Source: Rhabditoides inermis (lineage: Eukaryota; Nematoda; Chromadorea; Rhabditida; Rhabditidae). Taken from it: 64,000 nt of DNA. The position numbers and the translations under genes were made by a program. The stretch covers positions 456,001 to 520,000 of the forward strand of contig CAWZYM010000318.1 in the NCBI GenBank assembly GCA_963966185.1. Direction: 5' to 3'. The notes beneath the pieces are model-generated. The model was not told where the DNA came from. It did no database searches and worked only from the letters and a program-made list of their open reading frames with translations. Below, piece by piece: positions 3,176 to 25,097 of the stretch. Each line of letters begins with the position of its first letter. The first letter of the stretch is position 1.

Positions 3176-3206
3176 CCCTTTTATCCGGCTCCTAAAAACT
3201 GTTCGG
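3160..3206. repeat. Satellite inversion junction (head-to-head palindrome centre)
   Basis: Reverse-orientation satellite ends at 3,175 and forward satellite starts at 3,174/3,176. The left arm ccgaacagtttttagg (3,160-3,175) is the exact reverse complement of cctaaaaactgttcgg (3,191-3,206), with a 15 bp spacer. Outside this core the two arrays stay complementary, with only three mismatches in the first 130 bp or so. The bases gg (3,174-3,175) fit both the broken left monomer and the broken right monomer, so the join has 2 bp of microhomology. Confidence 0.9.
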
Positions 3207-6200
3207 TTTTCCGGCAAATCAATAATGAAGTTGTTCGAAGTAGAAAGAAGACGAGTGCAAAGAGTGAGACAGTGGTCAGACTGTTGTCTAGTGGTTTGCA
3301 GAGAATTCCCCAACTCACCTGAAACGTGTGATATACATGTTCACAACTGCCGAACTGTTGTAAACGACTGAGACGATACGGTAATGCGTCCTTTTCTCGT
3401 TTTTGACACCTCACAAACTACTTTGGACCACACATGATCTCTGTAGCAAAGACAGAGTCTTTAAAATGAGCGCGGATTTGGCGAGCCGAATATTGTCCGG
3501 AACAAAATTAATATTCGGCCTTTTTATCCGGCTCCTAAAAACTGTTCGGTTTTCCGGCAAATCAATAATGAAGTTGTCTGAAGTAGAAAGAAGACGAGTG
3601 CAAAGAGTGAGACAGTGGTCAGACTGTTGTCTAGTGGTTTGCAGAGAATTTCCCAACTCACCTGAAACGTGTGATATACATCTTCACAACTGCCGAACTG
3701 TTGTAAACGACTGAGACGATACGGTATTGCGTCCTTTTCTCGTTTTTGACACCTCACAAACTACTTTGGACCACACATGATCTCTGTAGCAAAGACAGAG
3801 TCTTTAAAATGAGCGCGGACTTGGCGAGCCGAATATTGTCCGGAACAAAATTAATATTCGGCCTTTTTATCCGGCTCCTAAAAACTGTTCGGTTTTCCGG
3901 CAAATAAATAATGAAGTTGTCTGAAGTAGAAAGAAGACGAGTGCAAAGAGTGAGACAGTGGTCAGACTGTTGTCTAGTGGTTTGCAGAGAATTCCCCAAC
4001 TCACCTGAAACGTGTGATATATGTACATCTTCACAACTGCCGAACTGTTGTAAACGACTGAGACGATACGGTAATGCGTCCTTTTCTCGTTTTTGACACC
4101 TCACAAACTACTTTGGACCACACATGATCTCTGTAGCAAAGACAGAGTCTTTAAAATGAGCGCGGATTAGGCGAGCCGAATATTGTCCGGAACAAAATTA
4201 ATATTCGGCCTTTTTATCCGGCTCCTAAAAACTGTTCGGTTTTCCGGCAAATCAATAATGAAGTTGTCTGAAGTAGAAAGAAGACGAGTGCAAAGAGTGA
4301 GACAGTGGTCAGACTGTTGTCTAGTGGTTTGCAGAGAATTCCCCAACTCACCTGAAACGTGTGATATACATACATGTTCACAACTGCCGAACTGTTGTAA
4401 ACGACTGAGACGATACGGTAATGCGTCCTTTTCTCGTTTTTGACACCTCACAAACTACTTTGGACCACACATGATCTCTGTAGCAAAGACAGAGTCTTTA
4501 AAATGAGCGCGGATTTGGCGAGCCGAATATTGTCCGGAACAAAATTAATATTCGGCCCTTTTATCCGGCTCCTAAAAACTGTTCGGTTTTCCGGCAAATC
4601 AATAATGAAGTTGTCTGAAGTAGAAAGTAGACGAGTGCAAAGAGTGAGACCGTGGTCAGACTGTTGTCTAGTGGTTTGCAGAGAATTCCCCAACTCACCT
4701 GAAACGTGTGATATACATGTTCACAACTGCCGAACTGTTGTAAACGACTGAGACGATACGGTAATGCGTCCTTTTCTCGTTTTTGACACCTCACAAACTA
4801 CTTTGGACCACACATGATCTCTGTAGCAAAGACAGAGTCTTTAAAATGAGCGCGGATTTGGCGAGCCGAATATTGTCCGGAACAAAATTAATATTCGGCC
4901 CTTTTATCCGGCTCCTAAAAACTGTTCGGTTTTCCGGCAAATCAATAATGAAGTTGTCTGAAGTAGAAAGAAGACGAGTGCAAAGAGTGAGACCGTGGTC
5001 AGACTGTTGTCTAGTGGTTTGCAGAGAATTCCCCAACTCACCTGAAACGTGTGATATACATGTTCACAACTGCCGAACTGTTGTAAACGACTGAGACGAT
5101 ACGGTAATGCGTCCTTTTCTCGTTTTTGACACCTCACAAACTACTTTGGACCACACATGATCTCTGTAGCAAAGACAGAGTCTTTAAAATGAGCGCGGAT
5201 TTGGCGAGCCGAATATTGTCCGGAACAAAATTAATATTCGGCCCTTTTATCCGGCTCCTAAAACCTGTTCGGTTTTCCGGCAAATCAATAATGAAGTTGT
5301 CTGAAGTAGAAAGAAGACGAGTGCAAAGAGTGAGACCGTGGTCAGACTGTTGTCTAGTGGTTTGCAGAGAATTCCCCAACTCACCTGAAACATGTGATAT
5401 ACATGTTCACAACTGCCGAACTGTTGTAAACGACTGAGACGAAACGGTAATGCGTCCTTTTCTCGTTTTTGACACCTCACAAACTACTTTGGACCACACA
5501 TGATCTCTGTAGCAAAGACAGAGTCTTTAAAATGAGCGCGGATTTGGCGAGCCGAATATTGTCCGGAACAAAATTAATATTCGGCCTTTTTATCCGGCTC
5601 CTAAAAACTGTTCGGTTTTCCGGCAAATCAATAATGAAGTTGTCTGAAGTAGAAATAAGACGAGTGCAAAGAGTGAGACAGTGGTCAGACTGTTGTCTAG
5701 TGGTTTGCAGGGAATTCCCCAACTCACCTGAAACGTGTGATATATGTACATGTTCACAACTGCCGAACTGTTGTAAACGACTGAGACGATACGGTAATGC
5801 GTCCTTTTCTCGTTTTTGACACCTCACAAACTACTTTGGACCACACATGATCTCTGTAGCAAAGACAGAGTCTTTAAAATGAGCGCGGATTTGGCGAGCC
5901 GAATATTGTCCGGAACAAAATTAATATTCGGCCTTTTTATCCGGCTCCTAAAAACTGTTCGGTTTTCCGGCAAATAAATAATGAAGTTGTCTGAAGTAGA
6001 AAGAAGACGAGTGCAAAGAGTGAGACAGTGGTCAGACTGTTGTCTAGTGGTTTGCAGAGAATTCCCCAACTCACCTGAAACGTGTGATATATGTACATCT
6101 TCACAACTGCCGAACTGTTGTAAACGACTGAGACGATACGGTAATGCGTCCTTTTCTCGTTTTTGACACCTCACAAACTACTTTGGACCACACATGATCT

Positions 6201-7468
6201 CTGTAGCAAAGACAGAGTCTTTAAAATGAGCGCGGATTAGGCGAGCCGAATATTGTCCGGAACAAAATTAATATTCGGCCTTTTTATCCGGCTCCTAAAA
6301 ACTGTTCGGTTTTCCGGCAAATCAATAATGAAGTTGTCTGAAGTAGAAAGAAGACGAGTGCAAAGAGTGAGACAGTGGTCAGACTGTTGTCTAGTGGTTT
6401 GCAGAGAATTCCCCAACTCACCTGAAACGTGTGATATATGTACATCTTCACAACTGCCGAACTGTTGTAAACGACTGAGACGATACGGTAATGCGTCCTT
6501 TTCTCGTTTTTGACACCTCACAAACTACTTTGGACCACACATGATCTCTGTAGCAAAGACAGAGTCTTTAAAATGAGCGCGGATTAGGCGAGCCGAATAT
6601 TGTCCGGAACAAAATTAATATTCGGCCTTTTTATCCGGCTCCTAAAAACTGTTCGGTTTTCCGGCAAATCAATAATGAAGTTGTCTGAAGTAGAAAGAAG
6701 ACGAGTGCAAAGAGTGAGACAGTGGTCAGACTGTTGTCTAGTGGTTTGCAGAGAATTCCCCAACTCACCTGAAACGTGTGATATACATACATGTTCACAA
6801 CTGCCGAACTGTTGTAAACGACTGAGACGATACGGTAATGCGTCCTTTTCTCGTTTTTGACACCTCACAAACTACTTTGGACCACACATGATCTCTGTAG
6901 CAAAGACAGAGTCTTTAAAATGAGCGCGGATTTGGCGAGCCGAATATTGTCCGGAACAAAATTAATATTCGGCCCTTTTATCCGGCTCCTAAAAACTGTT
7001 CGGTTTTCCGGCAAATCAATAATGAAGTTGTCTGAAGTAGAAAGAAGACGAGTGCAAAGAGTGAGACAGTGGTCAGACTGTTGTCTAGTGGTTTGCAGAG
7101 AATTCCCCAACTCACCTGAAACGTGTGATATACATGTTCACAACTGCCGAACTGTTGTAAACGACTGAGACGATACGGTAATGCGTCTTTTTCTCGTTTT
7201 TGACACCTCACAAACTTCTTTGGACCACACATGATCTCTGTAGCAAAGACAGAGTCTTTAAACTGAGCGCGGATTTGGCGAGCCGAATATTGTCCGGAAC
7301 AAAATTAAAATTCGGCCCTTTTATCCGGCTCCTAAAAACTGTTCGGTTTTCCGGCAAATCAATAATGAAGTTGTCTGAAGTAGAAAGAAGACGAGTATGT
7401 ACATCTTCACAACTCCCGAACTGTTGTAAACGACTGAGACGATACGGTATTGCGTCCTTTTCTCGTTT
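3176..7468 (+). repeat. Segmental duplication within satellite, copy 1
   Basis: The order of diagnostic monomers here is repeated at 12,434-16,808. Shared markers in the same order are gttcgaag (3,233 and 12,491), the caaataaataatg monomer, the gattaggcg monomers, the aaacctgttc monomer with acatgtgat, the gaaataagacg monomer with a ggg variant, and the tttaaactgagcg monomer. The offset steps from 9,258 to 8,915 to 9,262, so the copies differ by whole monomers gained or lost (343 and 347 bp). The last monomer in this copy has also lost 78 bp. Confidence 0.8.
7200..7468 (+). repeat. Deleted satellite monomer (269 bp)
   Basis: The text runs from gacgagt straight into atgtacatcttc. It lacks 78 bp present in other monomers (the gcaaagagtgagac... 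to ...gtgatat stretch). The paralogous monomer at 16,462 is full length, so the deletion followed the segmental duplication. Confidence 0.85.
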
Positions 7469-7842
7469 TTGACACCTCACAAACTACTTTGGACCACACA
7501 TGATCTCTGTAGCAAAGACAGAGTCTTTAAAATGAGCGCGGATTTGGCGAGCCGAATATTGTCCGGAACAAAATTAATATTCGGCCTTTTTATCCGGCTC
7601 CTAAAAACTGTTCGGTTTTCTTGCAAATCAATAATGAAGTTGTCTGAAGTAGAAAGAAGACCACCAACTAGACAACCACTAGACAACAGTCTGACCAGAG
7701 TGAGACAGTGGTCAGACTGTTGTCTAGTGGTTTGCAGAAAATTTCCCAACTCGTCTGAAACGTGTGATATATGTACATGTTCACAACTGCCGAACTGTTG
7801 TAAACGACTGAGACGATACGGTAATGAGTCCTTTTCTCGTTT
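7469..7842 (+). repeat. Isolated A-type monomer with inverted duplication (374 bp)
   Basis: This is the only monomer before 34 kb that carries the A-type insertion: a reverse-complement copy of the ccactagacaacagtctgacca stretch placed 11 bp before the normal copy. It also shares the A-type base change ttttcttgcaaatc. It has the 4 bp longer gatatatgtacatg form, giving 374 bp rather than the 370 bp seen in the later HOR domain. Confidence 0.85.
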
Positions 7843-8883
7843 TTGACACCTCACAAACTACTTTGGACCACACATGATCTCTGTAGCAAAGACAGAGTCT
7901 TTAAAATGAGCGCGGATTTGGCGAGCCGAATATTGTCCGGAACAAAATTAATATTCGGCCCTTTTATCCGGCTCCTAAAAACTGTTCGGTTTTCCGGCAA
8001 ATCAATGATGAAGTTGTCTGAAGTAGAAAGAAGACGAGTGCAAAGAGTGAGACAGTGGTCAGACTGTTGTCTAGTGGTTTGCAGAGAATTCCCCAACTCA
8101 CCTGAAAAGTGTGATATATGTACATGTTCACAACTGCCGAACTGTTGTAAACGACTTAGACGATACGGTAATGAGTCCTTTTCTCGTTTTTGACACCTCA
8201 CAAACTACTTTGGACCACACATGATCTCTGTAGCAAAGACAGAGTCTTTAAAATGAGCGCGGATTTGGCGAGCCGAATATTGTCCGGAACAAAATTAATA
8301 TTCGGCCTTTTTATCCGGCTCCTAAAAACTGTTCGGTTTTCCGGCAAATCAATAATGAAGTTGTCTGAAGTAGAAAGAAGACGAGTGCAAAGAGTGAGAC
8401 AGTGGTCAGACTGTTGTCTAGTGGTTTGCAGAGAATTCCCCAACTCACCTGAAACGTGTGATATATGTACATCTTCACAACTGCCGAACTGTTGTAAACG
8501 ACTGAGACGATACGGTATTGCGTCCTTTTCTCGTTTTTGACACCTCACAAACTACTTTGGACCACACATGATCTCTGTAGCAAAGACAGAGTCTTCAAAA
8601 TGAGCGCGGATTTGGCAAGCCGAATATTGTCCGGAACAAAATTAATATTCGGCCCTTTTATCCGGCTCCTAAAAACTGTTCGGTTTTCCGGCAAATCAAT
8701 AATGAAGTTGTCTGAAGTAGAAAGAAGACGAGTGCAAAGAGTGAGACAGTGGTCAGACTGTTGTCTAGTGGTTTGCAGAGAATTCCCCAACTCACCTGAA
8801 ACGTGTGATATATGTACATGTTCACAACTGCCGAACTGTTGTAAACGACTGAGACGATACGGTAATGAGTCCTTTTCTCGTTT

Positions 8884-9561
8884 TTGACACCTCACAAACT
8901 ACTTTGGACCACACATGATCTCTGTAGCAAAGACAGAGTCTTCAAAATGAGCGCGGATTTGGCGAGCCGAATATTGTCCGGAACAAAATTAATATTCGGC
9001 CCTTTTATCCGGCTCCTAAAAACTGTTCGGTTTTCCGGCAAATCAATAATGAAGTTGTCTGAAGTAGAAAGAAGACGAGTGCAAAGAGTGAGACAGTGGT
9101 CAGACTTTTGTCTAGTGGTTTGCAGAGAATTCCCCAACTCACCTGAAACGTGTGATATACATGTTCACAACTGCCGAACTGTTGTAAACGACTGAGACGA
9201 TACGGTAATGCGTCCTTTTCTCGTTTTTGACACCTCACAAACTACTTTGAACCACACATGATTTCTGTAGCAAAGACAGAGTCTTTAAAATGAGCGCGGA
9301 TTTGGCGAGCCGAATATTGTCCGGAACAAAATTAATATTCGGCCCTTTTATCCGGCTCCTAAAAACTGTTCGGTTTATAATGAAGTTGTCTGAAGTAGAA
9401 AGAAGACGAGTGCAAAGAGTGAGACAGTGGTCAGACTGTTGTCTAGTGGTTTGCAGAGAATTCCCCAACTCACCTGAAACGTGTGATATACATACATGTT
9501 CACAACTGCCGAACTGTTGTAAACGACTGAGACGATACGGTAATGCGTCCTTTTCTCGTTT
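8884..9561 (+). repeat. Local duplication, copy 1 (with 335 bp monomer)
   Basis: A 343 bp monomer is followed by the 335 bp cggtttataatg monomer, which has ttgaaccacac and gatttctg at its head. The same pair recurs 2,066 bp later at 10,950-11,627. The copies differ by a substitution near 9,107 (cttttg for ctgttg). Confidence 0.75.
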
Positions 9562-10602
9562 TTGACACCTCACAAACTACTTTGGACCACACATGATCTC
9601 TGTAGCAAAGACAGAGTCTTTAAAATGAGCGCGGATTTGGCGAGCCGAATATTGTCCGGAACAAAATTAATATTCGGCCCTTTTATCTGGCTCCTAAAAA
9701 CTGTTCGGTTTTCCGGCAAATCAATAATGAAGTTGTCTGAAGTAGAAAGTAGACGAGTGCAAAGAGTGAGACCGTGGTCAGACTGTTGTCTAGTGGTTTG
9801 CAGAGAATTCCCCAACTCACCTGAAACGTGTGATATATGTACATGTTCACAACTGCCGAACTGTTGTAAACGACTGAGACGATACGGTAATGCGTCCTTT
9901 TCTCGTTTTTGACACCTCACAAACTACTTTGGACCACACATGATCTCTGTAGCAAAGACAGAGTCTTTAAAATGAGCGCGGATTTGGCGAGCCGAATATT
10001 GTCCGGAACAAAATTAATATTCGGCCCTTTTATCTGGCTCCTAAAAACTGTTCGGTTTTCCGGCAAATCAATAATGAAGTTGTCTGAAGTAGAAAGTAGA
10101 CGAGTGCAAAGAGTGAGACCGTGGTCAGACTGTTGTCTAGTGGTTTGCAGAGAATTCCCCAACTCACCTGAAACGTGTGATATATGTACATGTTCACAAC
10201 TGCCGAACTGTTGTAAACGACTGAGACGATACGGTAATGCGTCCTTTTCTCGTTTTTGACACCTCACAAACTACTTTGGACCACACATGATCTCTGTAGC
10301 AAAGACAGAGTCTTTAAAATGAGCGCGGATTTGGCGAGCCGAATATTGTCCGGAACAAAATTAATATTCGGCCCTTTTATCTGGCTCCTAAAAACTGTTC
10401 GGTTTTCCGGCAAATCAATAATGAAGTTGTCTGAAGTAGAAAGTAGACGAGTGCAAAGAGTGAGACCGTGGTCAGACTGTTGTCTAGTGGTTTGCAGAGA
10501 ATTCCCCAACTCACCTGAAACGTGTGATATATGTACATGTTCACAACTGCCGAACTGTTGTAAACGACTGAGACGATACGGTAATGCGTCCTTTTCTCGT
10601 TT
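9562..10602 (+). repeat. Three identical consecutive 347 bp monomers
   Basis: Monomers starting at 9,562, 9,909 and 10,256 share private bases (tttatctggctcc, gaaagtagacg, gagaccgtgg) and appear identical in both strands' translations. They are a recent local amplification inside an otherwise mixed array. Confidence 0.8.
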
Positions 10603-10949
10603 TTGACACCTCACAAACTACTTTGGACCACACATGATCTCTGTAGCAAAGACAGAGTCTTCAAAATGAGCGCGGATTTGGCGAGCCGAATATTGTCCGG
10701 AACAAAATTAATATTCGGCCCTTTTATCCGGCTCCTAAAAACTGTTCGGTTTTCCGGCAAATCAATGATGAAGTTGTCTGAAGTAGAAAGAAGACGAGTG
10801 CAAAGAGTGAGACAGTGGTCAGACTGTTGTCTAGTGGTTTGCAGAGAATTCCCCAACTCACCTGAAACGTGTGATATATGTACATGTTCACAACTGCCGA
10901 ACTGTTGTAAACGACTGAGACGATACGGTAATGAGTCCTTTTCTCGTTT

Positions 10950-11627
10950 TTGACACCTCACAAACTACTTTGGACCACACATGATCTCTGTAGCAAAGAC
11001 AGAGTCTTCAAAATGAGCGCGGATTTGGCGAGCCGAATATTGTCCGGAACAAAATTAATATTCGGCCCTTTTATCCGGCTCCTAAAAACTGTTCGGTTTT
11101 CCGGCAAATCAATAATGAAGTTGTCTGAAGTAGAAAGAAGACGAGTGCAAAGAGTGAGACAGTGGTCAGACTGTTGTCTAGTGGTTTGCAGAGAATTCCC
11201 CAACTCACCTGAAACGTGTGATATACATGTTCACAACTGCCGAACTGTTGTAAACGACTGAGACGATACGGTAATGCGTCCTTTTCTCGTTTTTGACACC
11301 TCACAAACTACTTTGAACCACACATGATTTCTGTAGCAAAGACAGAGTCTTTAAAATGAGCGCGGATTTGGCGAGCCGAATATTGTCCGGAACAAAATTA
11401 ATATTCGGCCCTTTTATCCGGCTCCTAAAAACTGTTCGGTTTATAATGAAGTTGTCTGAAGTAGAAAGAAGACGAGTGCAAAGAGTGAGACAGTGGTCAG
11501 ACTGTTGTCTAGTGGTTTGCAGAGAATTCCCCAACTCACCTGAAACGTGTGATATACATACATGTTCACAACTGCCGAACTGTTGTAAACGACTGAGACG
11601 ATACGGTAATGCGTCCTTTTCTCGTTT
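10950..11627 (+). repeat. Local duplication, copy 2 (with 335 bp monomer)
   Basis: This is the partner of 8,884-9,561 at an offset of 2,066 bp, with the same private 12 bp deletion and head variants. Confidence 0.75.
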
Positions 11628-12433
11628 TTGACACCTCACAAACTACTTTGGACCACACATGATCTCTGTAGCAAAGACAGAGTCTTTAAAATGAGCGCGG
11701 ATTTGGCGAGCCGAATATTGTCCGGAACAAAATTAATATTCGGCCCTTTTATCCGGCTCCTAAAACCTGTTCGGTTTTCCGGCAAATCAATAATGAAGTT
11801 GTCTGAAGTAGAAAGAAGACGAGTGCAAAGAGTGAGACCGTGGTCAGACTGTTGTCTAGTGGTTTGCAGAGAATTCCCCAACTCACCTGAAACGTGTGAT
11901 ATACATGTTCACAACTGCCGAACTGTTGTAAACGACTGAGACGATACGGTAATGCGTCCTTTTCTCGTTTTTGACACCTCACAAACTACTTTGGACCACA
12001 CATGATCTCTGTAGCAAAGACAGAGTCTTTAAAATGAGCGCGGATTTGGCGAGCCGAATATTGTCCGGAACAAAATTAATATTCGGCCTTTTTATCCGGC
12101 TCCTAAAAACTGTTCGGTTTTCCGGCAAATCAATAATGAAGTTGTCTGAAGTAGAAATAAGACGAGTGCAAAGAGTGAGACAGTGGTCAGACTGTTGTCT
12201 AGTGGTTTGCAGAGAATTCCCCAACTCACCTGAAACGTGTGATATATGTACATCTTCACAACTGCCGAACTGTTGTAAACGACTGAGACGATACGGTAAT
12301 GCGTCCTTTTCTCGTTTTTGACACCTCACAAACTACTTTGGACCACACATGATCTCTGTAGCAAAGACAGAGTCTTTAAAATGAGCGCGGATTTGGCGAG
12401 CCGAATATTGTCCGGAACAAAATTAATATTCGG

Positions 12434-15400
12434 CCCTTTTATCCGGCTCCTAAAAACTGTTCGGTTTTCCGGCAAATCAATAATGAAGTTGTTCGAAGTA
12501 GAAAGAAGACGAGTGCAAAGAGTGAGACAGTGGTCAGACTGTTGTCTAGTGGTTTGCAGAGAATTCCCCAACTCACCTGAAACGTGTGATATACATGTTC
12601 ACAACTGCCGAACTGTTGTAAACGACTGAGACGATACGGTATTGCGTCCTTTTCTCGTTTTTGACACCTCACAAACTACTTTGGACCACACATGATCTCT
12701 GTAGCAAAGACAGAGTCTTTAAAATGAGCGCGGACTTGGCGAGCCGAATATTGTCCGGAACAAAATTAATATTCGGCCTTTTTATCCGGCTCCTAAAAAC
12801 TGTTCGGTTTTCCGGCAAATAAATAATGAAGTTGTCTGAAGTAGAAAGAAGACGAGTGCAAAGAGTGAGACAGTGGTCAGACTGTTGTCTAGTGGTTTGC
12901 AGAGAATTCCCCAACTCACCTGAAACGTGTGATATATGTACATCTTCACAACTGCCGAACTGTTGTAAACGACTGAGACGATACGGTAATGCGTCCTTTT
13001 CTCGTTTTTGACACCTCACAAACTACTTTGGACCACACATGATCTCTGTAGCAAAGACAGAGTCTTTAAAATGAGCGCGGATTAGGCGAGCCGAATATTG
13101 TCCGGAACAAAATTAATATTCGGCCTTTTTATCCGGCTCCTAAAAACTGTTCGGTTTTCCGGCAAATCAATAATGAAGTTGTCTGAAGTAGAAAGAAGAC
13201 GAGTGCAAAGAGTGAGACAGTGGTCAGACTGTTGTCTAGTGGTTTGCAGAGAATTCCCCAACTCACCTGAAACGTGTGATATACATACATGTTCACAACT
13301 GCCGAACTGTTGTAAACGACTGAGACGATACGGTAATGCGTCCTTTTCTCGTTTTTGACACCTCACAAACTACTTTGGACCACACATGATCTCTGTAGCA
13401 AAGACAGAGTCTTTAAAATGAGCGCGGATTTGGCGAGCCGAATATTGTCCGGAACAAAATTAATATTCGGCCCTTTTATCCGGCTCCTAAAAACTGTTCG
13501 GTTTTCCGGCAAATCAATAATGAAGTTGTCTGAAGTAGAAAGTAGACGAGTGCAAAGAGTGAGACCGTGGTCAGACTGTTGTCTAGTGGTTTGCAGAGAA
13601 TTCCCCAACTCACCTGAAACGTGTGATATACATGTTCACAACTGCCGAACTGTTGTAAACGACTGAGACGATACGGTAATGCGTCCTTTTCTCGTTTTTG
13701 ACACCTCACAAACTACTTTGGACCACACATGATCTCTGTAGCAAAGACAGAGTCTTTAAAATGAGCGCGGATTTGGCGAGCCGAATATTGTCCGGAACAA
13801 AATTAATATTCGGCCCTTTTATCCGGCTCCTAAAAACTGTTCGGTTTTCCGGCAAATCAATAATGAAGTTGTCTGAAGTAGAAAGAAGACGAGTGCAAAG
13901 AGTGAGACCGTGGTCAGACTGTTGTCTAGTGGTTTGCAGAGAATTCCCCAACTCACCTGAAACGTGTGATATACATGTTCACAACTGCCGAACTGTTGTA
14001 AACGACTGAGACGATACGGTAATGCGTCCTTTTCTCGTTTTTGACACCTCACAAACTACTTTGGACCACACATGATCTCTGTAGCAAAGACAGAGTCTTT
14101 AAAATGAGCGCGGATTTGGCGAGCCGAATATTGTCCGGAACAAAATTAATATTCGGCCCTTTTATCCGGCTCCTAAAACCTGTTCGGTTTTCCGGCAAAT
14201 CAATAATGAAGTTGTCTGAAGTAGAAAGAAGACGAGTGCAAAGAGTGAGACCGTGGTCAGACTGTTGTCTAGTGGTTTGCAGAGAATTCCCCAACTCACC
14301 TGAAACATGTGATATACATGTTCACAACTGCCGAACTGTTGTAAACGACTGAGACGAAACGGTAATGCGTCCTTTTCTCGTTTTTGACACCTCACAAACT
14401 ACTTTGGACCACACATGATCTCTGTAGCAAAGACAGAGTCTTTAAAATGAGCGCGGATTTGGCGAGCCGAATATTGTCCGGAACAAAATTAATATTCGGC
14501 CTTTTTATCCGGCTCCTAAAAACTGTTCGGTTTTCCGGCAAATCAATAATGAAGTTGTCTGAAGTAGAAATAAGACGAGTGCAAAGAGTGAGACAGTGGT
14601 CAGACTGTTGTCTAGTGGTTTGCAGGGAATTCCCCAACTCACCTGAAACGTGTGATATATGTACATGTTCACAACTGCCGAACTGTTGTAAACGACTGAG
14701 ACGATACGGTAATGCGTCCTTTTCTCGTTTTTGACACCTCACAAACTACTTTGGACCACACATGATCTCTGTAGCAAAGACAGAGTCTTTAAAATGAGCG
14801 CGGATTTGGCGAGCCGAATATTGTCCGGAACAAAATTAATATTCGGCCTTTTTATCCGGCTCCTAAAAACTGTTCGGTTTTCCGGCAAATAAATAATGAA
14901 GTTGTCTGAAGTAGAAAGAAGACGAGTGCAAAGAGTGAGACAGTGGTCAGACTGTTGTCTAGTGGTTTGCAGAGAATTCCCCAACTCACCTGAAACGTGT
15001 GATATATGTACATCTTCACAACTGCCGAACTGTTGTAAACGACTGAGACGATACGGTAATGCGTCCTTTTCTCGTTTTTGACACCTCACAAACTACTTTG
15101 GACCACACATGATCTCTGTAGCAAAGACAGAGTCTTTAAAATGAGCGCGGATTAGGCGAGCCGAATATTGTCCGGAACAAAATTAATATTCGGCCTTTTT
15201 ATCCGGCTCCTAAAAACTGTTCGGTTTTCCGGCAAATCAATAATGAAGTTGTCTGAAGTAGAAAGAAGACGAGTGCAAAGAGTGAGACAGTGGTCAGACT
15301 GTTGTCTAGTGGTTTGCAGAGAATTCCCCAACTCACCTGAAACGTGTGATATATGTACATCTTCACAACTGCCGAACTGTTGTAAACGACTGAGACGATA

Positions 15401-16808
15401 CGGTAATGCGTCCTTTTCTCGTTTTTGACACCTCACAAACTACTTTGGACCACACATGATCTCTGTAGCAAAGACAGAGTCTTTAAAATGAGCGCGGATT
15501 AGGCGAGCCGAATATTGTCCGGAACAAAATTAATATTCGGCCTTTTTATCCGGCTCCTAAAAACTGTTCGGTTTTCCGGCAAATCAATAATGAAGTTGTC
15601 TGAAGTAGAAAGAAGACGAGTGCAAAGAGTGAGACAGTGGTCAGACTGTTGTCTAGTGGTTTGCAGAGAATTCCCCAACTCACCTGAAACGTGTGATATA
15701 CATACATGTTCACAACTGCCGAACTGTTGTAAACGACTGAGACGATACGGTAATGCGTCCTTTTCTCGTTTTTGACACCTCACAAACTACTTTGGACCAC
15801 ACATGATCTCTGTAGCAAAGACAGAGTCTTTAAAATGAGCGCGGATTAGGCGAGCCGAATATTGTCCGGAACAAAATTAATATTCGGCCTTTTTATCCGG
15901 CTCCTAAAAACTGTTCGGTTTTCCGGCAAATCAATAATGAAGTTGTCTGAAGTAGAAAGAAGACGAGTGCAAAGAGTGAGACAGTGGTCAGACTGTTGTC
16001 TAGTGGTTTGCAGAGAATTCCCCAACTCACCTGAAACGTGTGATATACATACATGTTCACAACTGCCGAACTGTTGTAAACGACTGAGACGATACGGTAA
16101 TGCGTCCTTTTCTCGTTTTTGACACCTCACAAACTACTTTGGACCACACATGATCTCTGTAGCAAAGACAGAGTCTTTAAAATGAGCGCGGATTTGGCGA
16201 GCCGAATATTGTCCGGAACAAAATTAATATTCGGCCCTTTTATCCGGCTCCTAAAAACTGTTCGGTTTTCCGGCAAATCAATAATGAAGTTGTCTGAAGT
16301 AGAAAGAAGACGAGTGCAAAGAGTGAGACAGTGGTCAGACTGTTGTCTAGTGGTTTGCAGAGAATTCCCCAACTCACCTGAAACGTGTGATATACATGTT
16401 CACAACTGCCGAACTGTTGTAAACGACTGAGACGATACGGTAATGCGTCTTTTTCTCGTTTTTGACACCTCACAAACTTCTTTGGACCACACATGATCTC
16501 TGTAGCAAAGACAGAGTCTTTAAACTGAGCGCGGATTTGGCGAGCCGAATATTGTCCGGAACAAAATTAAAATTCGGCCCTTTTATCCGGCTCCTAAAAA
16601 CTGTTCGGTTTTCCGGCAAATCAATAATGAAGTTGTCTGAAGTAGAAAGAAGACGAGTGCAAAGAGTGAGACAGTGGTCAGACTGTTGTCTAGTGGTTTG
16701 CAGAGAATTCCCCAACTCACCTGAAACGTGTGATATACATACATGTTCACAACTGCCGAACTGTTGTAAACGACTGAGACGATACGGTAATGCGTCCTTT
16801 TCTCGTTT
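12434..16808 (+). repeat. Segmental duplication within satellite, copy 2
   Basis: This is the partner of 3,176-7,468, carrying the same ordered variants. It keeps the intact 347 bp version (16,462-16,808) of the monomer that is shortened to 269 bp in copy 1. It also has an extra gattaggcg monomer near 15,775-16,121. It is uninterrupted on its left, whereas copy 1 is cut there by the inversion junction. Confidence 0.8.
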
Positions 16809-18987
16809 TTGACACCTCACAAACTACTTTGGACCACACATGATCTCTGTAGCAAAGACAGAGTCTTTAAAATGAGCGCGGATTTGGCGAGCCGAATATT
16901 GTCCGGAACAAAATTAATATTCGGCCTTTTTATCCGGCTCCTAAAAACTGTTCGGTTTTCCGGCAAATCAATAATGAAGTTGTCTGAAGTAGAAAGAAGA
17001 CGAGTGCAAAGAGTGAGACAGTGGTCAGACTGTTGTCTAGTGGTTTGCAGAGAATTCCCCAACTCACCTGAAACGTGTGATATATGTACATCTTCACAAC
17101 TGCCGAACTGTTGTAAACGACTGAGACGATACGGTATTGCGTCCTTTTCTCGTTTTTGACACCTCACAAACTACTTTGGACCACACATGATCTCTGTAGC
17201 AAAGACAGAGTCTTTAAAATGAGCGCGGATTAGGCGAGCCGAATATTGTCCGGAACAAAATTAATATTCGGCCTTTTTATCCGGCTCCTAAAAACTGTTC
17301 GGTTTTCCGGCAAATCAATAATGAAGTTGTCTGAAGTAGAAAGAAGACGAGTGCAAAGAGTGAGACAGTGGTCAGACTGTTGTCTAGTGGTTTGCAGAGA
17401 ATTCCCCAACTCACCTGAAACGTGTGATATACATACATGTTCACAACTGCCGAACTGTTGTAAACGACTGAGACGATACGGTAATGCGTCCTTTTCTCGT
17501 TTTTGACACCTCACAAACTACTTTGGACCACACATGATCTCTGTAGCAAAGACAGAGTCTTTAAAATGAGCGCGGATTTGGCGAGCCGAATATTGTCCGG
17601 AACAAAATTAATATTCGGCCCTTTTATCCGGCTCCTAAAAACTGTTCGGTTTTCCGGCAAATCAATAATGAAGTTGTCTGAAGTAGAAAGTAGACGAGTG
17701 CAAAGAGTGAGACCGTGGTCAGACTGTTGTCTAGTGGTTTGCAGAGAATTCCCCAACTCACCTGAAACGTGTGATATACATGTTCACAACTGCCGAACTG
17801 TTGTAAACGACTGAGACGATACGGTAATGCGTCCTTTTCTCGTTTTTGACACCTCACAAACTACTTTGGACCACACATGATCTCTGTAGCAAAGACAGAG
17901 TCTTTAAAATGAGCGCGGATTTGGCGAGCCGAATATTGTCCGGAACAAAATTAATATTCGGCCCTTTTATCCGGCTCCTAAAACCTGTTCGGTTTTCCGG
18001 CAAATCAATAATGAAATTGTCTGAAGTAGAAAGAAGACGAGTGCAAAGAGTGAGACAGTGGTCAGACTGTTGTCTAGTGGTTTGCAGAGAATTCCCCAAC
18101 TCACCTGAAACGTGTGATATACATGTTCACAACTGCCGAACTGTTGTAAACGACTGAGACGATACGGTATTGCGTCCTTTTCTCGTTTTTGACACCTCAC
18201 AAACTACTTTGGACCACACATGATCTCTGTAGCAAAGACAGAGTCTTTAAAATGAGCGCGGATTTGGCGAGCCGAATATTGTCCGGAACAAAATTAATAT
18301 TCGGCCCTTTTATCCGGCTCCTAAAAACTGTTCGGTTTTCCGGCAAATCAATAATGAAGTTGTCTGAAGTAGAAAGTAGACGAGTGCAAAGAGTGAGACC
18401 GTGGTCAGACTGTTGTCTACTGGTTTGCAGAGAATTCCCCAACTCACCTGAAACGTGTGATATACATGTTCACAACTGCCGAACTGTTGTAAACGACTGA
18501 GACGATACGGTAATGCGTCCTTTTCTCGTTTTTGACACCTCACAAACTACTTTGGACCACACATGATCTCTGTAGCAAAGACAGAGTCTTTAAAATGAGC
18601 GCGGATTTGGCGAGCCGAATATTGTCCGGAACAAAATTAATATTCGGCCCTTTTATCCGGCTCCTAAAAACTGTTCGGTTTTCCGGCAAATCAATAATGA
18701 AGTTGTCTGAAGTAGAAAGTAGACGAGTGCAAAGAGTGAGACCGTGGTCAGACTGTTGTCTAGTGGTTTGCAGAGAATTCCCCAACTCACCTGAAACGTG
18801 TGATATACATGTTCACAACTGCCGAACTGTTGTAAACGACTGAGACGATGCGGTAATGCGTCCTTTTCTCGTTTTTGACACCTCACAAACTACTTTGGAC
18901 CACACATGATCTCTGTAGCAAAGACAGAGTCTTTAAACTGAGCGCGGATTTGGCGAGCCGAATATTGTCCGGAACAAAATTAATATT

Positions 18988-19064
18988 ATAACTCCACTAC
19001 GCTACGTTATAACGCTGATTTACCCTCCGCACACCGATAAATCAACAAAAAGGGGGAGGGACCA
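18988..19064 (-). repeat. R repeat, copy at outer end (B2-like)
   Basis: This 77 bp sequence is identical to 20,660-20,736 and 23,793-23,869. It contains the palindrome cgttataacg and the arm ccgcacaccgata, which is inverted relative to L. Its outer edge abuts satellite at att|ataactcc. Confidence 0.95.
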
Positions 19065-19471
19065 TTTATTGCAATCGCCGAAACCAACACCACACACCGA
19101 TACCAGCAAGCGAAAATGGGCAAAGAGGTCGGAACGGCGTCTTGAGAGACGCTTCCGACTTGTGACGAGGTGTGTGCGTGTAGTATCTTGTGCCGTCTGA
19201 AAAAAATATAAATGGGGCGCGACGGCGCCCGCAGACAGTAGCCCATCACGAGACTCACAGGATGGTTTATTGATGCCACAAACAAGCAAGGCATAACGAG
19301 AACGGTCGAAAACGAGAACGGACAAAACAAGAACGGAATAAACGTAACGATATATTAACCACGTAACAGAATCTATATATATATATATGCATATATATGT
19401 GTAACAGAATCTATATATATGCAACGATAAAATGCATCGTATCCGACCGAGTGAGAGGGGAGGTAGAAGAA
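19065..19471 (-). other. Non-coding 3' part of the YR cassette
   Basis: This stretch between the YR stop and R has no supported gene. It holds three degenerate copies of a 16-18 bp word containing gagaacgg / aagaacgg (about 19,291-19,338). It also holds two copies of gtaacagaatctatatat (from about 19,363 and 19,401) inside a (TA)n tract with gcatatatatg. Open frames running through it (for example 19,007-19,330) cross into R and have no homology that I recognise. Confidence 0.6.
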
Positions 19472-20455
19472 TCATAGCCCGACAAACGACGGGGTCGGCT
19501 TGACGTAGCTGGCAAGCGTACCCTGGGCCTTTCAGCGACCGTGCTCCATGATCTGCTGAATGGAAGCTCCGGTAGCCGCCCTGCACGAGGCTCCTCCTGA
19601 CCTGAGTCCGTGAGGGCGGAGATCTCCGCAGTCCGCCGATGCCTTCGCCAAATCCTTCCTTATGAGGTCGGTGGACGCCTTCCGCCCAGTCACCGTCTTC
19701 AACACGCGGTCCGAGCTTGAGTAGAATCGCTCGAACAGGAGACGGCGGGGGTCGGAGGGACCGCCGATCTCGACGACGGTCGTAGCACCCTGGGCGTATT
19801 GGTCGGTCTTGGAGGACCGCACGACGACTCGCAAGATGTCGCCCTCCAACGTCACATCATCTACAACGGATTGACGGTAAGGCTCTTATGACTCCTAACT
19901 CACCCCATCGCAACTCCGTGATCTCCGACACTCTTAGCAAGCCGTAAAAACCGAAGAGGGCGGTAAGTGCAGCCCGGCTCTCGCCCAGTGATGCCGGATT
20001 CGCTAGTCCCTTTGCGATGACCGAATCCACCTCAGCCCGAGTAGCGGGCCGGCTGTGGATGGCAGGCGGGCGGGCTCTAGCGGCAGCCTCCCTTAGTGCC
20101 TGGAGCACCGGCGACAGCACCTGGTCCTGAACACCGAGGTACTCGAGTCTGCATCACTGGCATACCTGATGGCCCACAAAAAATTGTAGGCAGCGCAGAG
20201 CGTGCTGACCGAGGCCAAGCCCGTGCCAGCGGCGAACTTGCGGGCGATGCAGATAACGAGGGCCTTGAAGTCGTCAGGTGCAAGACCGTCTTCTGCCGCA
20301 CACTTCGCCAGGGAGCGGAATGCGTTGTGGTAGGCAAGCACCGTACTGGGGGCCCGCCTCTCCCATAGTGCCCGCACCACGGCGTCTCTCACTCCGGACC
20401 CGACCGGCAACGCCTTCAGCGCCTCCGCCAAGGGACCAGCTGAAAAACGAACCAT
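19472..20455 (-). pseudogene. Tyrosine recombinase (YR), intron-containing, damaged
   Basis: This is a DIRS/Ngaro-type tyrosine recombinase, which in such elements integrates circular cDNA. The start chosen is the ATG at 20,453-20,455 (MVRFSAGPL), 69 bp inside the end of L. An N-terminal helical SAM-like domain contains APSTVLAYHNAF. The catalytic set is visible: R in LLRVSE (19,932-19,934), K in SSKTDQ (about 19,810), HxxR in HGLRSGGAS (H about 19,612, R about 19,603), H in MEHGR (about 19,543) and Y in LASYVKP (19,505-19,507). The reading frame is continuous only if a 43 nt intron (19,861-19,903) is removed and a 1 nt loss near 20,148 is accepted. In addition, TGA (19,532-19,534) stands where the family normally has W right after HGR, cutting off the catalytic Y. 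The final stop is TGA at 19,472-19,474. As it stands the copy should be inactive, unless the TGA is read through. Confidence 0.8.
19861..19903 (-). other. 43 nt GT-AG intron in the YR gene
   Basis: On the minus strand the segment begins GTGAGT and ends TTGTAG. Retained, it introduces stops and breaks the recombinase after ELRW. Removed, the codons join as TGG-GAT-GAT-GTG, giving ...LRWDDVTLEGD..., which fits the conserved LRW-x-DV block between the R and K boxes. Its length is not a multiple of 3, so the frame change across it matches splicing exactly. No expression data are available here. Confidence 0.7.
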
Positions 20456-20523
20456 CGGGGTGGTGGGTGGGTGACGTTCTTCCCCAATTGGGCATTGCTG
20501 TGGGTGGGAGGGCGAGGAAAACT

Positions 20524-20736
20524 GCAATGTCCCAGAATGACTTGAACGCGCCGCGTCCCAAACCATTTCACAGTCGCGCGTCGCGGTTGCACTTTGGGGC
20601 TCCGCCCCCTCAGCCGGCTCGCCACACGAGTATCGGTGTGTGCGGGGAAATCGCACATTATAACTCCACTACGCTACGTTATAACGCTGATTTACCCTCC
20701 GCACACCGATAAATCAACAAAAAGGGGGAGGGACCA
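20524..20736 (-). repeat. L-R joint (B1-A2-like) between YR and gag-pol units
   Basis: On the plus strand L is 20,524-20,659 and R is 20,660-20,736, joined at ATT (20,657-20,659). An imperfect inverted repeat flanks the joint: tatcggtgtgtgcgg (20,631-20,645) and ccgcacaccgata (20,699-20,711). The word ttataac occurs at 20,658 and again at 20,679, 21 bp apart, the second inside the palindrome cgttataacg (20,677-20,686). A ggggc-tcc-gcccc hairpin lies at 20,596-20,608. This layout suits a tyrosine recombinase core site with paired arms; that role is inferred. Confidence 0.75.
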
Positions 20737-20750
20737 GAGCAGCAAAGTAG

Positions 20751-22985
20751 TCAGCAGGAGCAATCGAAGTTGAGAAAGGCGAAAGGGAAGTGAATGCGCT
20801 CTGATTTGAACTTTTCGTTGCCGCGAGGTGCTGGGGTGAGAATGCGCGCGCCCGGCCCGTACACTAGCGCGTCCTTCACGAAAGGTGCCCACGCGTCTCC
20901 GTTCTTTACCAGCGGGTAGAACGGTGCACTAGGCCAAAGAGGCAACGCAAGGGTACCTACTGCTTTCCTGTCCATAACCTCAGCTATCACCCGCGGAAGC
21001 ATCCGAGGGGGAGGGCACAGCCACACTCTCCCCTCCCAAGCCTCGTCGTACCTGAAACAGTCCACTCCCGCGGACCGGGTTTCGGGTCTTCTAGTGTAGA
21101 AGCGGGGGAGCTTGGCGGAACTGGCGGAGCTGAATAAGTCGGCGGCGTGTTCGCCGAAGCGAGCGGAGACGAGTCTGAAGACACTTGGTAGAATACCCCA
21201 GTCGTCCGCTTCCGTCACCCTACTTTCCGCATCCGCTTCCCCGTTCAGTTCCCTTGGAATCCACCTGCACTCTACCGCAAACCCCTTACTATTCGCCAGG
21301 CTCCAGAATCGCTCAGTCAGGTCGTGCAGCGCTGACGACATACTACCTCTCGCAATGATTATTGACGCAGACGTGCTGTCAGTGTTGAACTCGATCTTGC
21401 GGTCGCGCCACTCGTCACCGAAACACTCGACAGCAAACAGAATACCCAACACTTCACGCGCTGCACTAGATGACCGTGCCTCGTCGTCCGTGAAATCGCG
21501 AGAAGCAGCAGTTTTCTTGCCACCTTCAAGCATCACAACTCCTACACCTGTAGCTGACGCGTCAGAAAACACCCTAATATCGCAAGCTCGACTTTCGGTG
21601 AAGGGCCGGCTTGCTCCCTCGCATAAGCGTTTGCACCACCAGTCCACTTCCCTCCAATGCATTTCAGACAGAGTGACCCGCTTACCTAGAGCAGGTTTAG
21701 ATGCTCGCGCTCCTGTGCCGTCCTCTCCGAGCTCGTCGCCGCTCGCCCAGGCCCACCTCCACTGCCCGTTCACCACCGCCAGCTGCAGCAGCCTTCTCGC
21801 GAACCGAAGACCCTCTGGAACACAGAGTGTGAGTGAGCACATTGTCCCAAGAGCACTTAACAAGTCTCTCAATGTCACTTCCGGGCTCTTCAGCCTGTCC
21901 AGCCTTTCCAACGCTCTATACCTGCGTGGCTGTGAGGGTACGGCGGCTCCCTTGAGTAAGTCAAACTCAAACCCTAGCCAGGTGAAAGTCACGTCCGGCA
22001 CCCACTGACACTTCTCATCGGCTGTGCACATCCCAGCTGCGGCTAGATCTTCCCTTACCATAGACACTGCTTTCCTCGCCTCTTCCTCCGATTTACCTAA
22101 GACCACGCCATCGTCCAGGTACATGAACACCATAATTCCTCGCGCGCGCCAACTGGTAACAAGCGGCCGAACAAACTTAGTGAACACAAACGGCGCTGCT
22201 GACATACCAAACGGAAGAGCAGCGAAAGCAAGAAACCTAGGCTGGCCGTCTTCGTCCTTTCCCCACTCAAAAGCCAACCAAGGTACATCCTCCTTGTGAA
22301 TTCCGACGTGATGATATCCGCTGCGCAGATCGAAAGTCGCGCCGTGAGTAAACTGGGTCAAGAGGGGCCACAGCGTCTGCGCATCTTCATACTTGAATTT
22401 CGTCGCGAGGCAGTGTTTGTTGAGCTCACTCAGATCCAAAATCAGCCGCTTTTTGCCTGCGCTACTAACGACGACAGACAATGGAGAAATGAACTTGGGT
22501 TTCTCGCAGACAACTACCACTCCTTCTCGCACATACTGAGCAACAGTGGAGCTGACAAACTCGTGGTGCATGTTGGCTGAAAACCTGTTAGGTTGTATAC
22601 ACTTGGGTTCCTGGGTCGGAACGTCTACCCAGTTAACCCTGTACCCACTACGCACTACCGATAAGACAAACTCTGATGCACCCAACCCGCGCCAGAAATC
22701 AATGTTTTTACGCACCGCGAGAAAGAGAGCCTTACCAGTTTTTGCAATCGCGCCGGTAATGCCCGGCTTGGCCGCACTTGTGGCACCTAGCGCTAGCTCC
22801 GGCAGAGTGAGCAGAGGACGACTGGCCAGCGTGGCTGCCTCCCCGTCCGTGGGAGGAGCCACCCTGCCGAAAGGGCTGGGAATATCGGGGTCGCTTGGCG
22901 GGCACCGGCTGACTGGCCGACTGAAACAGCTGCGAAAACATGACCATCTGCATTGGGTCCATGGAGGATCCTCCGGCGAGAGCAC
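20751..22985 (-). CDS. Reverse transcriptase-RNase H (pol) polyprotein
   Basis: This long open frame (744 codons from a GTG) makes the cDNA of the element. RT covers roughly residues 90-345, with FDLRSGYHHVGI (D219), the LPFGMSAAPFVF block near 257 and the YLDDG active site (289-293). RNase H follows, with D475 (FSDAS), E511, D536 (FNTDS) and D585 (GEADAESR), so the acidic quartet is complete. After RNase H comes a segment of about 145 residues with GVDCF and GTLALPLWPSAPFYPL, which I know as common in Ngaro/DIRS pol proteins. No ATG precedes the RT core (first M at 139), and the frame overlaps gag by about 250 bp in the +1 frame. A gag-pol frameshift, splicing or non-ATG start is therefore likely, and the true N-terminus is unknown. 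The frame is undamaged. It ends 15 bp before R, and no YR follows before R. Confidence 0.9.
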   Translation of the reverse strand: MLSPEDPPWTQCRWSCFRSCFSRPVSRCPPSDPDIPSPFGRVAPPTDGEAATLASRPLLTLPELALGATSAAKPGITGAIAKTGKALFLAVRKNIDFWRGLGASEFVLSVVRSGYRVNWVDVPTQEPKCIQPNRFSANMHHEFVSSTVAQYVREGVVVVCEKPKFISPLSVVVSSAGKKRLILDLSELNKHCLATKFKYEDAQTLWPLLTQFTHGATFDLRSGYHHVGIHKEDVPWLAFEWGKDEDGQPRFLAFAALPFGMSAAPFVFTKFVRPLVTSWRARGIMVFMYLDDGVVLGKSEEEARKAVSMVREDLAAAGMCTADEKCQWVPDVTFTWLGFEFDLLKGAAVPSQPRRYRALERLDRLKSPEVTLRDLLSALGTMCSLTLCVPEGLRFARRLLQLAVVNGQWRWAWASGDELGEDGTGARASKPALGKRVTLSEMHWREVDWWCKRLCEGASRPFTESRACDIRVFSDASATGVGVVMLEGGKKTAASRDFTDDEARSSSAAREVLGILFAVECFGDEWRDRKIEFNTDSTSASIIIARGSMSSALHDLTERFWSLANSKGFAVECRWIPRELNGEADAESRVTEADDWGILPSVFRLVSARFGEHAADLFSSASSAKLPRFYTRRPETRSAGVDCFRYDEAWEGRVWLCPPPRMLPRVIAEVMDRKAVGTLALPLWPSAPFYPLVKNGDAWAPFVKDALVYGPGARILTPAPRGNEKFKSERIHFPFAFLNFDCSC

Positions 22986-23382
22986 GGACGCTCTCCATCT
23001 GGTCGGCCATCGTGAGCAGCGAGGGGTTGGTATCTGCCGCCTTCAGCACGTTGAGGCGGCTCTCAACCATGTTACCAATGTCCTTGAACTTCGTGGGGTC
23101 CTGGCTGCGGGCTCCTTCGTCAAGAGCCAACAACACCCTATGCAGAAAGGAGGCATGAGCCGCGAGATCCGCCGACGCGAACAACGGCAGGGGCGGACGC
23201 TGCTCCTGGGGCTGCAGGAGCGGTTGAATCATTGCCGCGAGCTGCGCAAGAGGCAACTGCGGCTGCGCCTGCGGGGCAGCTCCAGGCATGACCGGCGGCG
23301 CGGCGGCTCCGGGATTCGGCGGGGCTCCGGCATTCGCCACAGGAGCACCATTCGGATTGGGGTTAGGGGGCAGGGGGTTCAT
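22732..23382 (-). CDS. Gag-like nucleocapsid protein with CCHC knuckle
   Basis: This is a 216 residue protein, likely the RNA-binding structural protein of the element. The start chosen is the ATG at 23,380-23,382 (MNPLPPNPNP), 5 bp after a strong splice acceptor; the frame is open further upstream, but that part lies on the intronic side. Residues 1-70 are rich in P, A, N and Q. A helical middle follows (about 70-130). Then comes an RGG-like basic stretch (about 164-185) and one zinc knuckle, C200-C203-H208-C213 (CHKCGQAGHYRRDC), three residues from the stop. The gene overlaps the RT frame at its 3' end. The single knuckle and the position before RT support the gag call; the N-terminal part has no family that I recognise. 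Confidence 0.85.
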   Translation of the reverse strand: MNPLPPNPNPNGAPVANAGAPPNPGAAAPPVMPGAAPQAQPQLPLAQLAAMIQPLLQPQEQRPPLPLFASADLAAHASFLHRVLLALDEGARSQDPTKFKDIGNMVESRLNVLKAADTNPSLLTMADQMESVRALAGGSSMDPMQMVMFSQLFQSASQPVPAKRPRYSQPFRQGGSSHGRGGSHAGQSSSAHSAGASARCHKCGQAGHYRRDCKNW

Positions 23383-23656
23383 AAGTCCTGTAAATAAAAG
23401 AATAGTTATCACCAAAAAAACGCGAAAGACAGCAAGGACAGACAAAAAGAACCCAGAAATCGGCTTAATTCCAAAAATCACTCGAGTTCACAGTTCCTCG
23501 AGAGAAAGCACAAGTAAGGAAGAGGACCACTTCCTACTATCAAGCCAATATGAGAGTTGAATTATAGAAACGCAAATTATCAAACAACAAATGAAAAAAA
23601 AGGCTATACAGAATTTCGAAACAGAAAAATCCTAAAATTCGGCGATTCGGGAAACA
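23383..23656 (-). other. Leader between L and gag, ending in a splice acceptor
   Basis: This AT-richer 274 bp stretch has no supported gene. On the minus strand its end reads ttcttttatttacag|g, with the AG at 23,388-23,389 and five bases before the gag ATG. It is a good polypyrimidine-AG acceptor. I see no clear GTAAG-type donor between L and this point, so it could pair with a donor further upstream or be a trans-splice acceptor. It also has a perfect gaactgtgaactcgag-type word near 23,480 and a poly-T run near 23,595 on the minus strand. Confidence 0.45.
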
Positions 23657-23869
23657 GCAATGTCCCAGAATGACTTGAACGCGCCGCGTCCCAAACCATT
23701 TCACAGTCGCGCGTCGCGGTTGCACTTTGGGGCTCCGCCCCCTCAGCCGGCTCGCCACACGAGTATCGGTGTGTGCGGGGAAATCGCACATTATAACTCC
23801 ACTACGCTACGTTATAACGCTGATTTACCCTCCGCACACCGATAAATCAACAAAAAGGGGGAGGGACCA
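23657..23869 (-). repeat. L-R joint between gag-pol units 2 and 1
   Basis: This 213 bp block is identical to 20,524-20,736, with L at 23,657-23,792 and R at 23,793-23,869. The core ATT is at 23,790-23,792. Past L the two blocks diverge at once: here caaacagcag-type leader on the element strand leads to gag, while the other leads to YR. Confidence 0.9.
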
Positions 23870-25097
23870 GAGCAGCAAAGTAGTCAGCAGGAGCAATCGA
23901 AGTTGAGAAAGGCGAAAGGGAAGTGAATGCGCTCTGATTTGAACTTTTCGTTGCCGCGAGGTGCTGGGGTGAGAATGCGCGCGCCCGGCCCGTACACTAG
24001 CGCGTCCTTCACGAAAGGTGCCCACGCGTCTCCGTTCTTTACCAGCGGGTAGAACGGTGCACTAGGCCAAAGAGGCAACGCAAGGGTACCTACTGCTTTC
24101 CTGTCCATAACCTCAGCTATCACCCGCGGAAGCATCCGAGGGGGAGGGCACAGCCACACTCTCCCCTCCCAAGCCTCGTCGTACCTGAAACAGTCCACTC
24201 CCGCGGACCGGGTTTCGGGTCTTCTAGTGTAGAAGCGGGGGAGCTTGGCGGAACTGGCGGAGCTGAATAAGTCGGCGGCGTGTTCGCCGAAGCGAGCGGA
24301 GACGAGTCTGAAGACACTTGGTAGAATACCCCAGTCGTCCGCTTCCGTCACCCTACTTTCCGCATCCGCTTCCCCGTTCAGTTCCCTTGGAATCCACCTG
24401 CACTCTACCGCAAACCCCTTACTATTCGCCAGGCTCCAGAATCGCTCAGTCAGGTCGTGCAGCGCTGACGACATACTACCTCTCGCAATGATTATTGACG
24501 CAGACGTGCTGTCAGTGTTGAACTCGATCTTGCGGTCGCGCCACTCGTCACCGAAACACTCGACAGCAAACAGAATACCCAACACTTCACGCGCTGCACT
24601 AGATGACCGTGCCTCGTCGTCCGTGAAATCGCGAGAAGCAGCAGTTTTCTTGCCACCTTCAAGCATCACAACTCCTACACCTGTAGCTGACGCGTCAGAA
24701 AACACCCTAATATCGCAAGCTCGACTTTCGGTGAAGGGCCGGCTTGCTCCCTCGCATAAGCGTTTGCACCACCAGTCCACTTCCCTCCAATGCATTTCAG
24801 ACAGAGTGACCCGCTTACCTAGAGCAGGTTTAGATGCTCGCGCTCCTGTGCCGTCCTCTCCGAGCTCGTCGCCGCTCGCCCAGGCCCACCTCCACTGCCC
24901 GTTCACCACCGCCAGCTGCAGCAGCCTTCTCGCGAACCGAAGACCCTCTGGAACACAGAGTGTGAGTGAGCACATTGTCCCAAGAGCACTTAACAAGTCT
25001 CTCAATGTCACTTCCGGGCTCTTCAGCCTGTCCAGCCTTTCCAACGCTCTATACCTGCGTGGCTGTGAGGGTACGGCGGCTCCCTTGAGTAAGTCAA
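23793..25097 (-). mobile_element. Truncated gag-pol cassette (unit 1, 1,305 bp)
   Basis: This unit has R (23,793-23,869) followed, on the plus strand, by the RNaseH and part of the RT region, matching 20,660-21,964 at an offset of 3,133 bp with no difference that I could find. It stops at tcaa (25,094-25,097), where unit 2 continues actcaaacc, and satellite resumes with tgcggtaatg. The gag, leader and L ends of this unit are gone. Confidence 0.85.
23884..25097 (-). pseudogene. Truncated RT-RNase H (C-terminal part)
   Basis: This matches residues from about 343 to 744 of the adjacent pol protein with no amino-acid change that I can find. It contains the RNase H domain and the post-RNase H segment but lacks the whole RT catalytic core, including YLDDG. 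It is cut at 25,097 by the junction with satellite. The stop and the spacing to R are the same as in the intact unit. It is a dead fragment of a tandem copy. Confidence 0.9.

Follow-up and report, generated by a model that had tools for sequence, protein, structure and literature searches.

Positions 18988–23792 of the window very probably hold a nematode-form Pat1-like element, a complete PAT retrotransposon ordered A1-gag-RT-RH-MT-B1A2-YR-B2, which sits at an ATT within satellite DNA of a Litoditis-like nematode host and which would move by the published split-direct-repeat route. A and B stand here for the left and right repeats L and R, and YR for the tyrosine recombinase. By the window we mean the whole stretch of 64,000 nucleotides that was analysed (C318:456001-520000); genome searches were made in the 172.6-Mb, 599-contig assembly to which it belongs.

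Nearly the whole window is a satellite array with a period of ~345 bp, and a single insert lies within it (Table 1). Before about 3174 the satellite consensus is apparently on the opposite strand. Read on the minus strand, the insert consists of a truncated RT-RH-MT, an R, then L-gag-RT-RH-MT-R and L-YR-R, after which the satellite resumes. The original prediction had described a gag-RT-RH cassette followed by a YR cassette, both with the same L and R ends, with R/L joints at ATT and with YR between A2 and B2, and this description was borne out. The three R copies, the third of them at 23793-23869, are identical over 77 bp and the two L copies over 136 bp; each L copy closes in ATT, so that both inner joints carry this trinucleotide, which occurs once more just outside the last R. 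Chance does not produce exact repeats of such lengths, and the split direct repeats A1-B1-A2-B2 are present both in the window element and in a second copy on contig C367. The sequence 23657-25097 matches 20524-21964 at 1,441 of 1,441 bp and the C367 copy at all but one base of the same length; the most likely reading of the extra gag-pol unit is therefore that it was recently duplicated from the adjoining unit and afterwards lost its own 5' side.

Table 1. Features of the insert and its satellite setting (window coordinates; a slash marks a joint)
Feature	Position	Strand	Remarks
Satellite array	1-18984 and 25098-64000		monomers about 343 and 347 bp
ATT, presumed crossover trinucleotide, B2/satellite joint	18985..18987	.	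satellite monomers: ...TTAATATT/CGGCC
Complete element	18988-23792	-	exactly one L...R...L...R
B2 (right repeat R, element 3' end)	18988..19064	-	77 bp, same as the two other R copies
YR coding part	19532..20656	-	open in three pieces: 20093-20656, 19857-20120, 19532-19855
Intron-like insert GTGAGT...TTGTAG in YR gene	19861..19903	-	43 bp; unchanged in 3/3 family copies
A2 (left repeat L)	20524..20659	-	136 bp, no difference from A1; ATT at R/L joint
B1 (right repeat R)	20660..20736	-	77-bp R copy
RT-RNase H-MT-like ORF	20751..22985	-	744 aa; Pfam RVT_1, RT_RNaseH, Dam
gag-like ORF with CCHC zinc knuckle	22732..23481	-	other frame, overlaps RT ORF; Pfam zf-CCHC
A1 (L copy that opens the complete element, 5' side)	23657..23792	-	136 bp; outer end clean in C367 copy
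Extra 5'-truncated gag-pol unit (remaining RT-RH-MT plus R)	23793..25097	-	R/L joint to A1, satellite beyond

The gag ORF contains a Gag zinc finger (PF00098, 22.6 bits against a cut-off of 20.8), and the 744-aa ORF matches RVT_1 with an E value of 1.9e-20. The match to RT_RNaseH is weak (1.2e-4, 22.7 bits, cut-off 24.8), as is that to Dam (PF05869, E 0.0023, 18.1 bits, cut-off 28.1), which marks an MT-like domain C-terminal to RNase H. Of 7 relatives scanned, 6 have a Dam match in the corresponding position, every time below the Pfam cut-off, and it was absent from the seventh, a partial Pristionchus mayeri protein (P0005). YR has the same orientation as RT and is not inverted. Its coding part in the window is interrupted: the first frame break lies near 20093-20160, outside the intron-like insert, and the last piece carries a stop directly ahead of the catalytic tyrosine, as judged by alignment with the C367 and C283 copies and by tblastn with a related open YR. 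The YR of C367 continues past the position of this stop, but its frame is interrupted elsewhere. Several PAT families share this feature: inserts occur at the matching YR site in three of five other cassettes compared (L015, L033 and L037), while none is present in L044 or in the query L027, and the reading of the fifth, L022, is ambiguous. It is plausible that 19861-19903 is a spliceosomal intron. If the insert is spliced, the genomic RNA must evade splicing, as these elements presumably replicate through RNA.

Genome-wide, a search with the 77-bp R gave six places, of which C318 has three, C367 two and C283 one, and a 138-bp query containing L also gave six, two in each of these contigs. C367 holds the whole unit at an unrelated site, with 99.5% identity over 4.8 kb. 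Its flanks, ...TTTGATT/R...L/ATTCACC, contain one ATT per side with no further duplication seen; the window satellite was not matched in them, and this copy is instead adjoined by another tandem repeat, with a unit of about 313 bp. The copy in C283 is older (93-97%) and keeps the order, and it is cut within YR and is without B2. Since the C367 copy is whole and the C283 copy retains the order, the unit moves as a whole, and the two cassettes are one element and not a chimera. As the YR frame is broken in the window and interrupted in C367, it is the 99.5% identity that suggests recent activity. Searches of the genome with L and R yielded no solo unit of the window's own family beyond the extra piece in the window. 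PAT copies adjoin tandem-repeat arrays in the window, in L012 (the C367 copy), in L026 and in L048, which may reflect a target preference or chance.

A wider survey was made with the YR C-terminal piece as query, which gave 48 rows corresponding to at least 43 places by our own count. We read 39 of these 43, mostly with about 1.5 kb per side, the remaining four being C308:451836, C254:84910, C283:152162 and C212:420631. The order MT-B1-YR-B2, with A2 between B1 and YR, was found in 25 of the 39 places, the window and C367 included, and these 25 fall into 12 families by our own reading of the tree. Eight more are solo A-YR-B units (L016, L034, L035, L036, L038, L043, L045 and L051, where the contig stops within B), and the other six, L013, L020, L028, L040, L046 and L047, are either cut or interrupted. 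The Ngaro order, with both of the element's B repeats downstream of YR, was found in none of the 39 places. Direct repeats do lie downstream of YR in L011, L012, L026, L046, L047 and L048; these belong to tandem arrays external to the element, except in L046 and L047, where a block is repeated. In these two (C308) the YR fragments lie within nearly identical tandem repeats, a PAT piece having been caught in the repeated block. L017, L018 and L019 (twice in C397 and once in C398) are full PAT elements of one family that are identical over the YR cassette, from either a very recent burst or segmental duplication.

The assignment of some places changed on closer reading. L020 was considered as a solo YR unit and was rejected as such, as about 60 bp upstream of B1 are retained and it is a 5'-truncated copy. 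The 52-bp and 25-bp repeat pair around the YR of L016 had been taken for CT-rich flank repeats, and comparison with L017 identified a solo unit. L040 was thought to be truncated; C196 holds A1, the joint and B2, and its YR is more likely interrupted.

The original prediction had seen in the order of repeats and YR a possible new arrangement, and this did not stand; the comparison had been with Ngaro alone, which is the wrong relative. According to PMC4157794, DIRS elements, PAT included, bear a putative MT; PAT elements have A1-B1-A2-B2 repeats, and the Gag of Pat1-like ones carries a zinc finger. For the nematode-form Pat1-like elements and for Kangaroo, that account places the internal repeats between MT and YR. 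The tested structural features of the window element match this published layout, and the arrangement is therefore a known one, already described in nematodes, of which the element itself is a further example. The nematode-form Pat1-like elements named there, Panagrellus redivivus Pat1 and those of Pristionchus pacificus and Caenorhabditis briggsae, have the order seen here. What differs from these published elements is that ours belong to other families in a Litoditis-like genome, with intron-like YR inserts and solo cassettes. Kangaroo of Volvox is a PAT element with internal repeats between MT and YR as here, but its YR is inverted, and the algal Toc3 is a PAT element like that of the window; the same account describes both Toc3 and Kangaroo as without a Gag zinc finger (PMC4157794). 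Ngaro shares split direct repeats, YR and gag-RT-RH with the window element, but in that account it lacks MT and has its internal repeats after YR (PMC4157794), while in the element described here these repeats precede YR and an MT-like match is present.

The host is in keeping with this assignment. Within Chromadoria, a passage of PMC4157794 reports the nematode form only from Rhabditomorpha and Diplogasteromorpha, and the COX1 of the assembly has 98% identity to Litoditis, a genus of Rhabditomorpha. In a quick tree built with 26 of 31 relatives (P0015, P0018, P0025, P0030 and P0031 omitted) and with an outgroup of six rows that are Gypsy-like by our own reading of domain lists, the window RT belongs to a clade of six rows (SH-aLRT 99) that includes P. 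mayeri P0005; its relatives in the clade are unnamed or 'hypothetical' proteins. Four of the five YR relatives of the sister-family cassette L027 are from Pristionchus. No protein in either comparison is annotated as Pat1, and a grouping of RT and YR with PAT is thus tentative. A literature search for Litoditis together with transposable elements found no paper.

The predicted presence of solo units elsewhere in the genome was confirmed by the eight L-YR-R units of the survey and by a single solo L-gag-pol-R. The latter came from joint queries made for six further families, all six of which have full A1...B1A2...B2 sets; it is in C126 (L042), and its gag has the CCHC motif. To these comes L056, the ninth solo YR piece, which is clean at its A end and is without B. 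The matches of solo YR units to full relatives begin within about 7 bases of the joint. The B match of L035 is only 25 bp, and the left and right trinucleotides of L016 are unlike each other. Also found were four short A-B units bounded by PAT ends, L052 (C320), L053 (C272), L054 (C7) and L055 (C183), which measure 140-648 bp and have longest stop-free stretches of 41-116 aa. L052 has AAT at both ends and a 36-bp interior without a clear match, L053 and L054 are each a B beside a shortened A, and the B end of L055 is degraded. L055 was considered as a carrier of new cargo, and gag-pol traces in its interior make it better read as an internal deletion. These short units may be non-autonomous elements or internal deletions; by their sequence they look like internal deletions, whether formed on the spot or moved in trans, and not like simple products of repeat recombination. 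Solo A-YR-B or A-gagpol-B units of PAT are mentioned neither in the titles and abstract openings of the matches listed nor in the passages of PMC4157794 consulted, whose main text contains neither 'solo' nor 'non-autonomous'. For Ngaro, isolated AB repeats in Cafeteria have been compared to solo LTRs in a passage of PMC8547959.

The solo YR units were placed on a quick DNA tree, made with no bootstrap, in which nine solo YR cassettes, among them L051 and L056, stand beside 25 full ones. By our own reading the solo units fall in six families, and no spreading solo lineage was seen among these 34 cassettes. The solo label needs nine changes for nine solo rows, of which at least seven are firm (starred branches), and all 500 of 500 label shuffles need nine changes or fewer. 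Open forks hold two solo pairs, L035/L038 and L043/L056, several families are small, and the joining of the window family to the L017 group is possibly false; solo units that jumped singly and rarely would hardly be noticed on such a tree. As the solo rows are dispersed and need so many changes, the solo units appear not to be a lineage, and most of them look like fresh products.

Both the layout and the ATT are accounted for by the published model. An RNA spanning A1 to B2 would be copied by RT, with the internal B1A2 as the template for those end sequences that the copy lacks. A circular DNA bearing R/L joints would then form, and YR would recombine an R/L joint with a genomic ATT, leaving no target duplication. 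For DIRS1, a passage of PMC3266345 describes a joint of 3 bp that has the sequence of the target and arises with no duplication. The RNA and circle stages are those that we infer for the movement of this element. Since A1/A2 and B1/B2 are direct repeats, and YR presumably also acts at every R/L joint, halves can be lost or gained after integration. Recombination of A1 with A2 would remove gag-pol-B1 and leave A-YR-B, while recombination of B1 with B2 would remove A2-YR and leave A-gagpol-B, and direct-repeat recombination of this kind is the probable source of the solo YR and solo gag-pol units. Unequal exchange between A1 and A2 would add a second gag-pol, giving the gag-pol/gag-pol-YR order of the window, and this seems the simplest account of the extra unit at 23793-25097, which is 5'-truncated and comes from one locus.

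A sizeable, though minority, possibility is that the element is the same and that its solo and tandem units arise not from homologous recombination but from the action of YR on ATT joints, through excision, minicircles and re-insertion. The breakpoints lie at joints, each of which is a presumed YR site, a circle with two R/L joints could conceivably resolve into gag-pol and YR minicircles, and the short unit L052 is flanked by AAT on both sides. Recombination between identical A or B repeats, however, gives equal end points, and the two routes cannot be told apart by sequence. Another reading, which we consider improbable, is that any A...B stretch is the basic mobile unit, that Pat1-type elements are composites in which two cassettes sharing their ends can be exchanged, and that gag-pol, YR and short cassettes are each cut out and put back by YR on their own. 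If it were true, a Crypton-like YR unit would be repeatedly released from a retrotransposon and could rejoin it.

Still less probable, and in our view very unlikely, is a system of two components, in which a Crypton-like A-YR-B and a separate A-gagpol-B would each insert at ATT, with YR acting in trans, and full elements would be joined pairs. The solo YR, solo gag-pol and short A-B units, most of whose ends are at or near a joint, could be taken for the parts of such a system, as could the extra gag-pol unit of the window, which is without a YR of its own. Against this, the nine solo rows are dispersed on the tree and give no sign of a spreading solo lineage, so that a YR cassette moving gag-pol units in trans, as the original prediction had suggested, is not supported; full elements are also commoner than solo YR units (25 against 8 of 39), the window's family has no solo unit outside the window, and repeat recombination yields solo YR and solo gag-pol units without mobility. 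Cryptons consist of YR alone (a passage of PMC4157794), and YR-only units do exist here, but the solo A-YR-B units have PAT ends and are dispersed among full PAT elements, and the tree of solo and full cassettes gives no sign of YR-only proliferation, which is a Crypton trait. The least credible reading is an assembly chimera or a local rearrangement of an ordinary Ngaro-type element, an outcome for which the prediction itself had allowed. Long identical repeats inside a satellite array are a typical place for misassembly, but the same order recurs at 24 YR places besides the window, among them the whole C367 copy, and in the cut C283 copy, and Ngaro-type placement of the B repeats is seen at none of the 39 places read; for the layout, this reading is refuted.

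With the element at 18988-23792 read as a nematode-form Pat1-like PAT retrotransposon, the interest that remains lies in the recurrent release of YR and gag-pol cassettes with intact ends. What is added to the published picture is a count of how such elements decay, in which two pairs of direct repeats would free YR and gag-pol units whose ends are intact. The possible interconversion of Crypton-like YR units and YR retrotransposons thereby becomes testable within a single genome.
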